Shown in pieces: positions 30,352-63,817 of a stretch of DNA of 64,000 nucleotides. The position numbers and the translations under genes are program-made. Each line of letters opens with the position of its first letter. Within the stretch, counting starts at the first letter, position 1. Under the pieces are notes generated by a model, which saw only the letters and a program-made list of their open reading frames with translations, had not been told where the DNA came from and did no database searches. Source of the stretch: Microthrixaceae bacterium (GTDB taxonomy: Bacteria > Actinomycetota > Acidimicrobiia > Acidimicrobiales > Microtrichaceae); assembly GCA_020845705.1 (NCBI GenBank), contig JADLFH010000020.1, forward strand, positions 20,559-84,558, in the 5' to 3' direction.

Positions 30352-30424
30352 TGCCTCAAATTGGGCCATGAGGCAGTGAGGGTCGGGAACCGGTCCGCCT
30401 TGCCTCAAGAATCGATTTGAGGCA
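30352..30424 (-). repeat. 73-base composite double-palindrome repeat, copy 1 (reverse)
   Basis: Two 24-base palindromes with 8-base arms (tgcctcaa/ttgaggca, one arm imperfect in the first) and 8-base loops lie at 30352-30375 and 30401-30424, separated by 25 bases. The order of the two palindrome types is reversed relative to the copies at 41612 and 62438. Confidence 0.9.
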
Positions 30425-30444
30425 GGTGGGGCCGGTCTCTTTTG

Positions 30445-30495
30445 CGAACTTGCGTACGGATCCGTCGCCGGAGGCCGGATCCGTACGCAAGTTCG
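30445..30495. repeat. Palindromic repeat, family 2, copy 2
   Basis: Perfect 20-base arms (30445-30464 and 30476-30495, beginning cgaacttgcgtacggatcc) flank an 11-base loop. The outer 13 bases are the same as in the copy at 26003-26051, and gggatctg follows in both. It sits 20 bases after the composite repeat. Confidence 0.9.
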
Positions 30496-41611: not shown

Positions 41612-41684
41612 TGCCTCAAACTGATTCTTGAGGCACACGGGTGCGGTTTCCGGCCCCCTCCGCCTCATGAAGAGGTTTGAGGCA
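41612..41684 (+). repeat. 73-base composite double-palindrome repeat, copy 2 (forward)
   Basis: Palindromes at 41612-41635 (tgcctcaa-N8-ttgaggca) and 41661-41684 are separated by 25 bases. A further half-copy (tgcctcaaag) lies exactly 25 bases upstream, at 41587. The element fills the gap between the DUF151 and MerR genes. Confidence 0.9.
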
Positions 41685-59906: not shown

Positions 59907-61316
59907 GTGACCGACACCGACAACCAGGCGGCGGCGATGGCCGCCTCCTATGGAGAACTCATCGCAGGGCTGCGCCAGACCTTCGAGTCAGGCAGGACCC
60001 GGCCCATTGCCTGGCGACGTGAGCAACTCGCCGGCCTCGTCCAGTTCCTCGTCGCCCACGAGGACGAACTGATCGAGGCACTGCGGACGGATCTCGGCAA
60101 GCCACCGTTCGAGGCCTACGGCACCGACATCGGGGTGGTGCGCATGCACATCCGCGACATCTCCCGAAAGCTCGACCGCTGGATGAAGCCCGACAGGGTG
60201 TTCCCGGGGCTGCTCTCGCTTCCCGGCACTGCCGAGGTCATCAAGGAACCCCTCGGGGTCGTCTTGGTGATCGCTCCGTGGAACTACCCGGTGCAGCTCC
60301 TGTTGGAACCGGTGGCGGCTGCACTCGCCGCGGGCAACTGCGTGGTCGCCAAGCCCTCCGAGTTGGCACCCGCTACGGCGTCGGTGTTGGCTCGACACCT
60401 CCACCGTTTCGTCGATCCCGACGCGGTGGCGCTGGTCGAGGGCGGTGTCCCCGAGACGACGGCATTGCTGGAGAACCGCTTCGACCACGTCTTCTTCACG
60501 GGCTCGACGGCTGTCGGCCGAGTTGTGATGGCCGCCGCGGCGAAGCACCTAACGCCGGTAACCCTGGAACTCGGAGGTAAGAGTCCCACCATCGTCGCGG
60601 CCGACGCCGATCTTGCCGTCGCCGCACGTCGGATCACCTGGGCGAAGTTCATGAACGCAGGCCAGACCTGCATCGCACCCGACTACCTCCTCGTGGAGCG
60701 GTCGGTCCGCGACGAGCTGGTCGATCGGATCCAGGGCGCGATCCGCGAGTTCTACGGTACCGATCCGAAGGTCACCGCGGACCTGGGCCGGATCGTCAAC
60801 GAACGGCACCACGACCGACTCACCAGGTTGGTGTCAGGAAGCGGCGGCGTCGTCTGTGGCGGCGACCACGACCGTTCGACCCGCTATCTTGCGCCCACGA
60901 TCGTGCTGGACCCCGATGTCGATTCGGGCCTCATGTCCGAGGAGATCTTCGGTCCAGTGCTACCGGTCCTTGCGATCGATTCGGTCGAGGACGCGATCGC
61001 GTTCGTCAATGATCGCGACAAGCCGCTGGCGCTCTACGTCTACACGCGCTCGAAGGAAACGGCCGATCGGGTGCTCGCCCGCACCAGTTCGGGTGGTGCA
61101 TGTGTCAACCATTCGGTGATGCACATCCTGCCGGAGAACCTGCCCTTCGGTGGGGTTGGGCCGTCGGGTATGGGCGCGTATCACGGCAAGGCCGGCTTCG
61201 ACGTGTTCAGCCACCACAAGTCGGTTCTTCGCAAGCCCACGTTCCTCGATCCCAAGCTGCTCTACCCGCCGTACGCGTTGTGGAAGGCGAAGATCATGCG
61301 GGCCGTATTCCGCTGA
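59907..61316 (+). CDS. ALDH3-type aldehyde dehydrogenase
   Basis: Class 3 aldehyde dehydrogenase, 469 residues, typical of enzymes oxidising fatty or aromatic aldehydes with NAD(P). The catalytic Cys is C255 in NAGQTCIAPDY, the Glu is in LELGGKSPTIV, and IAPWNYPVQLL and SEEIFGPVLPV are present; the C-terminal segment KPLALYVYTR to GMGAYHG is of the ALDH3 group. The length is shorter than classical ALDH, as expected for class 3. The GTG start has gaggagg 7 bases upstream. Its stop lies 15 bases before the inverted-repeat unit. Confidence 0.93.
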   Translation: MTDTDNQAAAMAASYGELIAGLRQTFESGRTRPIAWRREQLAGLVQFLVAHEDELIEALRTDLGKPPFEAYGTDIGVVRMHIRDISRKLDRWMKPDRVFPGLLSLPGTAEVIKEPLGVVLVIAPWNYPVQLLLEPVAAALAAGNCVVAKPSELAPATASVLARHLHRFVDPDAVALVEGGVPETTALLENRFDHVFFTGSTAVGRVVMAAAAKHLTPVTLELGGKSPTIVAADADLAVAARRITWAKFMNAGQTCIAPDYLLVERSVRDELVDRIQGAIREFYGTDPKVTADLGRIVNERHHDRLTRLVSGSGGVVCGGDHDRSTRYLAPTIVLDPDVDSGLMSEEIFGPVLPVLAIDSVEDAIAFVNDRDKPLALYVYTRSKETADRVLARTSSGGACVNHSVMHILPENLPFGGVGPSGMGAYHGKAGFDVFSHHKSVLRKPTFLDPKLLYPPYALWKAKIMRAVFR

Positions 61317-61331
61317 TCAACCACCTCCGGC

Positions 61332-61356
61332 CCCCGCTGCCTCAAACCTCCGGCCC
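61332..61356 (+). repeat. Outer inverted repeat, left arm
   Basis: A 25-base end with core ccccgctgcctcaaacc. Its reverse complement, apart from a one-base gap, is at 62515-62538. Confidence 0.88.
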
Positions 61357-61360
61357 CCGC

Positions 61361-61433
61361 TGCCTCAAACCTCTGCATGAGGCAGGGAGGACCGATTTCC
61401 GGCCCCCGCTGCCTCAAGGATCGCTTTGAGGCA
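61361..61433 (-). repeat. 73-base composite double-palindrome repeat, copy 3 (reverse)
   Basis: Palindromes at 61361-61384 and 61410-61433 with a 25-base spacer. Read on the minus strand it aligns with the copy at 62438-62510 at 60 of 73 positions by hand count. Confidence 0.92.
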
Positions 61434-61455
61434 TAGCGGCCCGGTCCATGCTGCC

Positions 61456-62382
61456 TCATGCAGCGCGTAGCCGATGGTGGTAGGTCTCGGCTATGGCCTT
61501 CGCGAGGTCGGCCGGGTCGTTGACGATCTGCTCGTACATGATCCGGATTGTGTGCCAGCCACGCCGGCTCGCCTCGAGGTCGCGTTCGTGATCGGCGGAC
61601 ATCGCCTTTTGCCGAGCATGCCAACGCCGACCGTCTGCCTCGAGGAGGAGCGTGGCCTCGGGGAATCCTCGGTCGGTCAGGCCGGAGCGCCGACCCGTGT
61701 TCGGCAAGGGGTACTGCGTTGTGCCCTGGCCGATGCCGGCCAGCTCCAGAATCTCGCTGAGAGCGACTTCGAGCCGGCTCGATGCGATGGCTCCGCCAGG
61801 CGAGAGCTCGTCCAGCACCACGCCGAGTTGGCTTCCGCGTGTGCGCCCGAGCACGCCCACTCGCAACAGGGCCATCCCGAGTGCCGCCTGCGACAACCCC
61901 CGGTCGAAGAGGGCGGCTTCGACGATTGTGCGGACCCGGGGTAGCGACAGGATCGTGGAAAGGTCACACACAGTCCGCGCGAGGCCGGTGTAGCGGAGGT
62001 CGTCGACGACAACGACATCGCAGGGATCGAGTTTCATCTGATGGAGTTCAACGCCGGCACGTCGTCTGTGATCGAAGTGGGGCACTATGCAGGCTTGGGT
62101 CTCTGCCGCGATGGCGGGCAGGTCGAACATTCGGCCGGCCGTCTGGTGGGAGAGTACCGAGCGCTCTCCGAGGGATAGCTGTATGCACCAGTTGCGTTGG
62201 GTCTCGGACTCGGGGGTTCCCGGGATCACGAGCACCCCTGGCAGGTCGGGCCTCCAGCGACCCGAGGCCACTCGGCGCTTCACCGCCGAAGGGGTGTAGC
62301 CCCGGTCGATCGCCTGGGCACGGGTGAATGCCCCTGCCTGAGCGGCCGCGACAATTGCAAGGAGGTCATCTCGTTCTGTCAT
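61456..62382 (-). CDS. AbiEi-type wHTH/DUF559 (VSR-like) protein
   Basis: A 308-residue protein. The N-terminal winged helix (residues ~18-55: GAFTRAQAIDRGYT, RRVASGRWRPDLPGV) is the AbiEi_4 antitoxin-type DNA-binding domain. The C-terminal ~70 residues, from LEADGRRWHA at 247, fit the DUF559/very-short-patch-repair-like nuclease fold, with E248 and D250 as likely metal ligands. No AbiEii-type toxin gene follows. Such orphan proteins are common in actinobacteria and unassigned. The ATG at 62382 has tatctt 7 bases upstream. The stop codon lies within a half-copy of the repeat (gcatgaggcag). Confidence 0.8.
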   Translation of the reverse strand: MTERDDLLAIVAAAQAGAFTRAQAIDRGYTPSAVKRRVASGRWRPDLPGVLVIPGTPESETQRNWCIQLSLGERSVLSHQTAGRMFDLPAIAAETQACIVPHFDHRRRAGVELHQMKLDPCDVVVVDDLRYTGLARTVCDLSTILSLPRVRTIVEAALFDRGLSQAALGMALLRVGVLGRTRGSQLGVVLDELSPGGAIASSRLEVALSEILELAGIGQGTTQYPLPNTGRRSGLTDRGFPEATLLLEADGRRWHARQKAMSADHERDLEASRRGWHTIRIMYEQIVNDPADLAKAIAETYHHRLRAA

Positions 62383-62389
62383 GCGCTGG

Positions 62390-62395
62390 AAGATA
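62390..62395 (-). promoter_or_regulatory. Putative leaderless -10 box for the AbiEi/DUF559 gene
   Basis: On the minus strand this reads tatctt, 7 bases before the ATG at 62382 and inside the repeat-bounded unit. Confidence 0.42.
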
Positions 62396-62437
62396 TTGAG
62401 ATGCTGTGACAGTGAGCTCGAGATGGCCGGTCCCTCA

Positions 62438-62510
62438 TGCCTCAATCCGATTCTTGAGGCATGACGGACCGGAAACCGGCCTTCCCTGCCTCATGCCGGG
62501 GTTTGAGGCA
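62438..62510 (+). repeat. 73-base composite double-palindrome repeat, copy 4 (forward)
   Basis: Palindromes at 62438-62461 and 62487-62510, arms tgcctcaa/ttgaggca, with a 25-base spacer. It lies upstream of the AbiEi/DUF559 gene in the opposite orientation to copy 3. Confidence 0.92.
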
Positions 62511-62514
62511 ACGA

Positions 62515-62538
62515 GGGCCGGGGTTTGAGGCAGCGGGG
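62515..62538 (-). repeat. Outer inverted repeat, right arm
   Basis: Reverse complement of 61332-61356 except for one base. It ends one base before the stop codon of the M18 aminopeptidase gene. Confidence 0.88.
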
Positions 62539-62539
62539 C

Positions 62540-63817
62540 TTACGTGGTGAGCCAGGCGGCGAATACCTCGACCATCATCGCCACATCGGCGGAGGCCATC
62601 AGCTCACGAATCGAGTGCATCGACAGCTGAGCCATGCCCACATCCAGCGTCGGGATGCCGAGACGTGCAGACACGATGGGCCCGATGGTGGAACCGCAGG
62701 GCAGATCGTTGCGGTGGCTGTACTCCTGAACGGGCACACCCATTCGGTCGCACAACAGCCGGAACCGTGCGCCGGTCTCGCCGTCGGTCGAATAGCGCTG
62801 GTTCAGGTTGGTCTTGATCACCGGGCCGCCGCCAAGTGCGATCCGATGGTTCGGCTCGTGGCGGTCGGGGTAGTTCGGGTGCGTGCCGTGCGCCATGTCC
62901 GCCGACAGGCACATCGAAGCGGCACACGACCGGATCAGATCCTCGGAATCACCGCCCCGCGCCGAGACGAGACGCTCCAGCACGCTTCGCAGCAAGACGG
63001 AGTCGGCGCCGGTAGCGGAGCCCGATCCCACCTCCTCGTGGTCGAGGAGCGCGATGGCGGGAAGCACCTCGGCTGAGGCATCGACAGCGGCGATAAGGGC
63101 ACTTACGGCCCCGAAGCACGAACAGAGGTTGTCGAGTCGAGGTGCGCTGATCAGTTCCTCGTTGGCGCCGATGAATCCAGCTGGGAGTGTGTCGTGGCAC
63201 ATGGCGTCCCAACCCAGCACGTCGCCGCTGCCCACTCCGGACACCTCGGCGAGCCAGGAGACGAAGTCACCGTCGCTCGCTGGGCCAAGCCCCCACACAG
63301 GGGTCAGGTGCTGTTGACGGTTGAGCAGCAGACCGCGCTCGGATATCTCCCTGTCCAGGTGGATCGCGAGTTGCGGAACTCGCAGGAGCGGTCGATCGTC
63401 GCGAAAGAGCCTGGTGGCGAGATCCCGCGAGCCGCTCCGTACGACTACCCGTCCTGCCAGCCCGAGGTCACGGTCGAGCCAGGAGTTCATGAGCAGACCG
63501 CCGTAGGGCTCCACGTCGAGCTGGCGAAAGCCGGCGGCTCCGATGTCGGGGCGGGGCTTGATCCGCAGGTTGGGCGAATCGGTGTGTGCGGCGATCAGGC
63601 GCATCGGCCGAGCCGGGTCTCCCTCGGGGGCGGCCCATGCGATCAGCGAACCTGCCTGCGCGACGAACGCGGGTCCCCCGGGCTGCCACCGCGCCGCAGG
63701 GTCCATCTCCGCAAAACCCGCTGCCCGCAGACGGCCGGCTGCCTCGGCGACCGCGTGAAATGGGGTTGGGGCGGCGTCGATGAAGGCGAGGAGGTCGTCG
63801 GCCGGGGTGACGGGCAT
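62540..63817 (-). CDS. apeB: M18 family aspartyl aminopeptidase
   Basis: Zinc aminopeptidase that removes N-terminal acidic residues, 425 residues, the usual M18 length. The metal ligands and catalytic residues can be placed in AAHTDSPNLRIK, APRLDNL, LLDHEEVGSGS, SADMAHGTHPNY and the C-terminal MHSIRELM. GSTIGPI and the DLPCGS segment are also typical. The ATG at 63817 follows a TANNNT box by 6 bases. The gene's 3' end runs directly into the right arm of the repeat unit. The enzyme is cytoplasmic, without a signal peptide. Confidence 0.93.
   Translation of the reverse strand: MPVTPADDLLAFIDAAPTPFHAVAEAAGRLRAAGFAEMDPAARWQPGGPAFVAQAGSLIAWAAPEGDPARPMRLIAAHTDSPNLRIKPRPDIGAAGFRQLDVEPYGGLLMNSWLDRDLGLAGRVVVRSGSRDLATRLFRDDRPLLRVPQLAIHLDREISERGLLLNRQQHLTPVWGLGPASDGDFVSWLAEVSGVGSGDVLGWDAMCHDTLPAGFIGANEELISAPRLDNLCSCFGAVSALIAAVDASAEVLPAIALLDHEEVGSGSATGADSVLLRSVLERLVSARGGDSEDLIRSCAASMCLSADMAHGTHPNYPDRHEPNHRIALGGGPVIKTNLNQRYSTDGETGARFRLLCDRMGVPVQEYSHRNDLPCGSTIGPIVSARLGIPTLDVGMAQLSMHSIRELMASADVAMMVEVFAAWLTT

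Follow-up and report, generated by a model that had tools for sequence, protein, structure and literature searches.

The window analysed here, 64,000 nucleotides of a Microthrixaceae bacterium genome (G000; GenBank assembly GCA_020845705.1, contig JADLFH010000020.1, positions 20,559 to 84,558), contains a gene on the minus strand at 61456..62382 whose predicted product combines an AbiEi-like domain with a Vsr/EDxHD-like nuclease domain, and which lies between inverted copies of a palindromic repeat. By binding and cutting this palindrome, the encoded protein probably brings about the spread of its copies and keeps them alike. Because the repeats of such genes differ from one gene to another and, in the four families that were counted, are scattered and nearly absent where the matching gene is missing, the protein is likely to be the agent that spreads them. 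The whole is most likely a system resembling repetitive extragenic palindromic (REP) elements, with its own nuclease, which is unrelated to the REP-associated tyrosine transposases (RAYTs). REP elements have long been puzzling, and in print we found them linked to just one class of enzyme, the RAYT tyrosine transposases; if our interpretation is true, evolution has arrived at the REP lifestyle on more than one occasion.

Two nested layers of inverted repeats enclose the gene, in agreement with an earlier note on this DNA. The outer arms, which are tandem half-units (61332..61355 and 62515..62538), are 24 nt long and 88% complementary, and the inner composites (61345..61444 and 62427..62526) match each other in inverted orientation over 100 nt per arm with 79% complementarity. 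Each composite carries two palindromes of the form TGCCTCA-N10-TGAGGCA at a spacing of 49 nt (61361..61384 and 61410..61433 on the left, 62438..62461 and 62487..62510 on the right). These four are among seven in the window, where 100 dinucleotide shuffles yielded none. The earlier note had also placed solo composites at 30.35 and 41.6 kb; the former indeed has two palindromes (30352..30424), whereas the latter amounts to a single intact palindrome (41612..41635) without a second exact copy. Searching the genome and its relatives with the repeat, as that note proposed, gave 53 palindromes in the genome itself (reversed-pattern control, 0); the 50 of these whose positions were read fall into 26 clusters. 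Fifteen clusters consist of exactly two palindromes, 49 nt apart and in opposite orientation as assigned by a crude rule, and the others are singles, triples and one quadruple. For many of the clusters another reading is a longer palindrome that runs from tag to tag around an AAA/TTT centre, with outer ends resembling CGTTCT...AGAACG and with tandem half-units alongside. When folded as single strands, each of the three window composites was more stable than all 200 of its shuffles (z -3.2 to -5.4); the matching stretch of the same-genus genome G001 was not (z 0.5). The same border sequence, GCGAACTTGCGTACGG or nearly its reverse complement, stands at two composites (30444-30459 of the window and 2022-2037 of locus L116) and possibly represents another repeat family.

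In each of the four families for which copies were counted, only genomes with the gene have its palindrome in multiple copies. That of the window is matched once each in three of the 147 other genomes and is absent from the other 144, among them G001, which is about 75% complete and whose best match to the window protein, at E 2e-28, is not a close homolog. The family of G097 accounts for 56 palindrome arms in that genome and the family of locus L105 for 39 arms in G005, while in genus g11 three genomes contain 22, 17 and 14 arms as against 0, 2 and 0 in the three others, which have no match to the gene or only weaker ones. An abundance of solo repeats in genomes lacking any such gene, which the earlier note had named as evidence against its idea, was thus for the most part not seen, since relatives without a close gene have very few copies of the repeat or none. 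The G097 copies are near identical across 39 nt and end mainly in TTT or TCC, and 15 of 27 palindromes combine the two types. Solo copies of the L105 family, in G005, mostly have TTCT or CGTTCTG-like ends, and the two gene-flanking copies turn a CTTT end outward. A CGCTTTG end also occurs on the gene-flanking palindromes of L101, L104 and L105 in this genome, facing outward in the latter two.

The layout extends well beyond the window. Matches to the window protein at E <= 1e-5 were present in 80 of the 148 genomes searched (its own included), and a profile search of 10 genomes returned 2 to 11 match rows per genome. When the two 350-nt flanks of each gene were compared, a repeat common to both was found for 60 of 92 usable family genes (window included), in inverted orientation for 46, and for none of 272 control open reading frames (ORFs) from the fetched stretches. 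A palindrome score of at least 16 was reached on at least one side by 46 of the 92 as against 5 of 282 controls, and on both sides by 14 as against none. A strict hairpin finder overlooked many imperfect palindromes. The 92 genes are what remained of 97 gathered cases after removal of five having less than 150 nt on one side (five loci fetched twice, four from contigs already used and seven contig matches shorter than 600 nt had been left out before, and no further exact duplicates occur); they comprise the better-scoring homologs and those of a few genomes rather than a random sample. The expectation that other genes of this type would be flanked by the repeat therefore held for the layout but not for the sequence, the repeats being different ones. 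This is clearest in the complete genome of G005, where all 10 paralogs have an inverted flank pair, every pair of its own sequence, and 8 of them are clearly palindromic, scoring 15 or higher as hairpins on one flank or both; ten gene copies and ten cognate sequences in one genome offer a testable enzyme-repeat system with inbuilt specificity controls. The palindromes of family genes are about 39-52 nt long, and their commonest outer 5-mers are CGTTC (in 22 of 56 cases, as against 5 in the 16 nt that follow) and GTTCT (20 versus 4). Loci with the layout are mostly from Acidimicrobiia or unresolved Actinomycetota metagenome-assembled genomes, two being from one labelled Acidobacteria; a plasmid search and a viral-contig search added little, with one partial match each.

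A site without the unit exists at the junction of the genes that flank it, where the earlier note had suggested looking for one. In the window an aldehyde dehydrogenase gene (59907..61316, plus strand) and an aminopeptidase gene (62540..63817, minus strand), called ALDH3 and apeB after that note without test of the names, are separated from stop codon to stop codon by 1,223 nt (61317..62539) that hold the whole unit. In G001 (locus L175) the two genes are likewise convergent, with their stop codons only 9 nt apart; the dehydrogenases are 84.7% and the aminopeptidases 77.8% identical. No such junction was seen at the 27 further loci of the family that have a match to the aminopeptidase, two of which have a 38-41% dehydrogenase match nearby. 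The stretches around the two window solo sites did not align with G001 and gave no empty-site comparison, and no clean junction was found between G005 and G018 around L105. A different kind of change is evident between the congeners G097 and G041, in which the gene is orthologous, in place and 67% identical. The outer CGAGTAAATA is kept, with small variants, at both gene-flank palindromes and at a solo copy some 18 kb away, but the cores differ: one core type is common to the three places in G097, and another to the three in G041. G134, of the same family, lacks the gene unit, has about 525 nt of other sequence in its place, and has no palindrome at that solo site. The parallel difference in cores suggests rewriting in place by break repair. 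At a G097 copy (L243 around 19648, G097:C45), comparison with G134 shows the palindrome replacing the end of the gene to its left, for which it appears to provide the stop codon (GAG TAA).

The window protein is 308 amino acids long from its ATG, in an open frame that extends to a TTG at 62445. Its AbiEi_4 match barely exceeds the Pfam cut-off (25.9 versus 25 bits), and those to MTES_1575 and DUF559 fall below theirs. PADLOC AbiEi models cover residues 3-165 (best E 4e-24), and in the predicted structure the N-terminal ~190 residues have the AbiEi antitoxin fold in common with 6y8q. The remainder has the predicted catalytic fold of the EDxHD enzyme I-Bth0305I together with conserved E, D, H and D residues, and MTES_1575 is given as a Vsr-fold domain in PMC3710099. 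The protein is accordingly predicted to be an AbiEi-type DNA-binding domain fused to a Vsr/EDxHD-type nuclease domain, with E205, D237, E248, H255 and D264 as putative catalytic residues. In the mechanism that we envisage, the palindrome, perhaps folded into a hairpin or cruciform, would be read by the AbiEi module; a pair of nuclease domains would cut near its tagged ends (CGTTCT or CGCTTT read inward); and repair of the break would copy the palindrome to a new, mostly intergenic site or overwrite an older one. In general terms, AbiEi-nucleases may well be a second, independently evolved class of enzymes that make and maintain bacterial REPs. Each paralog would read a palindrome of its own and cut it with an active site like that of homing endonucleases, repair would plant new copies and rewrite old ones, and the core of an entire repeat family would thereby change along with the enzyme.

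The closest parallel is the RAYT/REP system (REPtron), in which a gene also lies between inverted palindromes, with scattered solo copies, composite doublets, a short tag at the repeat end and a cognate repeat whose abundance follows the gene (PMC2817692, PMC3733652). The enzyme there is an IS200/IS605 tyrosine transposase, whereas here an AbiEi fold and a Vsr/EDxHD-like nuclease are predicted, and the tag, palindromes of ~39-52 nt and ten unlike gene-repeat pairs in a single genome also set the present system apart. We do not consider the protein a RAYT, because no IS200/IS605 Y1 (HUH) transposase domain is among its Pfam matches (AbiEi_4, MTES_1575 and DUF559), nor is a Y1 model among the families listed for 31 aligned sequences, and because the tag is another one; a GTAG or related tetranucleotide was not found at the repeat ends. 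CGTC-tagged REPs, a large class in many prokaryotes apparently without a dedicated transposase, resemble the present repeats as short tagged palindromes, but an AbiEi-nuclease gene is not mentioned in what we have of their description (PMC3733652). EDxHD homing endonucleases share the catalytic fold predicted here, and I-Bth0305I is reported to dimerise on a target almost 60 bp long (PMC3943268), approximately the size of the present palindromes. They differ in that the AbiEi module here takes the place of their described DNA-binding regions and in the associated multicopy palindromes; no intron was seen around the window gene, although introns were not searched for. An AbiE type IV toxin-antitoxin pair, which has the same antitoxin fold, is not what we see, because no AbiEii nucleotidyltransferase toxin adjoins the gene, both neighbours being the dehydrogenase and aminopeptidase genes, and the protein continues into a C-terminal nuclease-like domain. 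Literature linking DUF559, MTES_1575 or AbiEi proteins to REP-type repeats was not found in a search that mostly excluded subscription papers and preprints; a table in PMC12306157 includes Acidimicrobium, but the terms RAYT, transposase and nuclease were not found in its text.

Other explanations of the association were considered. The palindromes could be spread by something else, such as a RAYT elsewhere in the genome, with the AbiEi-nuclease gene a tenant that tends to integrate in or next to them. RAYTs are, after all, the REP-linked enzymes of the published accounts cited above, the genomes used here were not searched for them, and only one comparison bears on movement of the unit. A tenant would not, however, be expected to come with ten different repeats at ten paralogs of one genome, nor does the idea sit well with congeners that lack a close gene and have 0 or 2 matches, or with gene-flank and solo cores that differ in parallel around a gene that has not moved; we therefore think it quite improbable. 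Alternatively, the protein may not move the palindromes at all: they may be bidirectional terminators, or sites to which its AbiEi winged helix binds in regulating its own gene and a wider regulon. The promoters of AbiEi antitoxins do contain inverted repeats to which these proteins bind (PMC7319586), and by crude ORF calls many solo copies lie between convergent genes (16 of 25 in G097, 10 of 24 in G000, 6 of 15 in G005), as terminators might. Copies on both sides of the gene, their rarity between divergent genes (1 of 25, 3 of 24 and 0 of 15) and the near identity of the G097 copies count against this, and a regulon would not lead one to expect conserved putative active-site residues or a repeat lacking in congeners, so that this explanation seems unlikely. 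It is very improbable that the protein is a stand-alone defence or toxin nuclease against foreign DNA for which the palindromes mark self DNA or act as decoys: the PADLOC matches and the Vsr-like nuclease domain predicted for it would fit such a role, but there is no toxin partner, the neighbours being the dehydrogenase and aminopeptidase genes, palindrome cores differ between congeners, and there are only tens of palindromes per genome.

Several results weigh against a protein that spreads its own repeat. The earlier proposal of a REP-type mobile unit is borne out by the RAYT-like layout, the solo copies and the unit-free site, but not by the 32 of 92 family genes without a flank pair, among them L069, one of the two other paralogs in the window's genome, and all four tested genes of G004; in G005, the pairs of L096 and L102 are inverted repeats without a clear palindrome. 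Eleven of 21 repeat cores were seen nowhere but at the gene in the 278-337 kb that were sampled, and 8 of 15 G005 solo copies lie inside crude ORF calls. The case for movement of the whole unit is a single comparison, in which both genomes are incomplete (about 75% each) and which gives no polarity. The G041 ortholog of the G097 gene is not accompanied by the G097 core, and a fourth orthologous place in G041 holds a palindrome with yet another core. Foldseek alone retrieved 6y8q at 2.9e-5 and I-Bth0305I only at E 0.18. The 67% identity of the one ortholog pair falls within the 48-98% range of 15 neighbouring ORFs, and evolution faster than that of neighbours, as reported for RAYTs, was not seen in this comparison. 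Across all between-genome pairs, the rank correlation of protein with palindrome similarity was null, its rho of 0.020 being attained in 649 of 2000 permutations. A test of only the most similar palindrome pairs, from which same-genome pairs and five named close pairs were removed, was picked after that null result and its pairs are not independent. It gave mean protein identities of 0.382 for 31 pairs at cut-off 12, 0.408 (versus 0.294 permuted) for 16 pairs at cut-off 13 and 0.417 for 9 pairs at cut-off 14, each reached by none of 5000 permutations, but at the strictest cut-off (>=15) the 7 pairs averaged 0.372, reached by 37 of 5000. The idea that the putative recognition helix alone explains palindrome similarity was rejected, its link being no stronger than that of the rest of the protein.

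The remaining paralogs of the window's genome present a varied picture. A second paralog (L002/L069, G000:C97) has a similar gene in the other genome of the genus (L041, G001:C239), and both have an upstream palindrome with CGTTCTCGGCAG and no flank pair that was found (the flank in L041 is short); this paralog may be an older or decayed unit. At the flanks of the third (L070, G000:C58) stands another palindrome, CGTTCTGTGGTGCG...CGCACCACAGAAC, similar to the one of the G005 paralog L105 (score 15.0).
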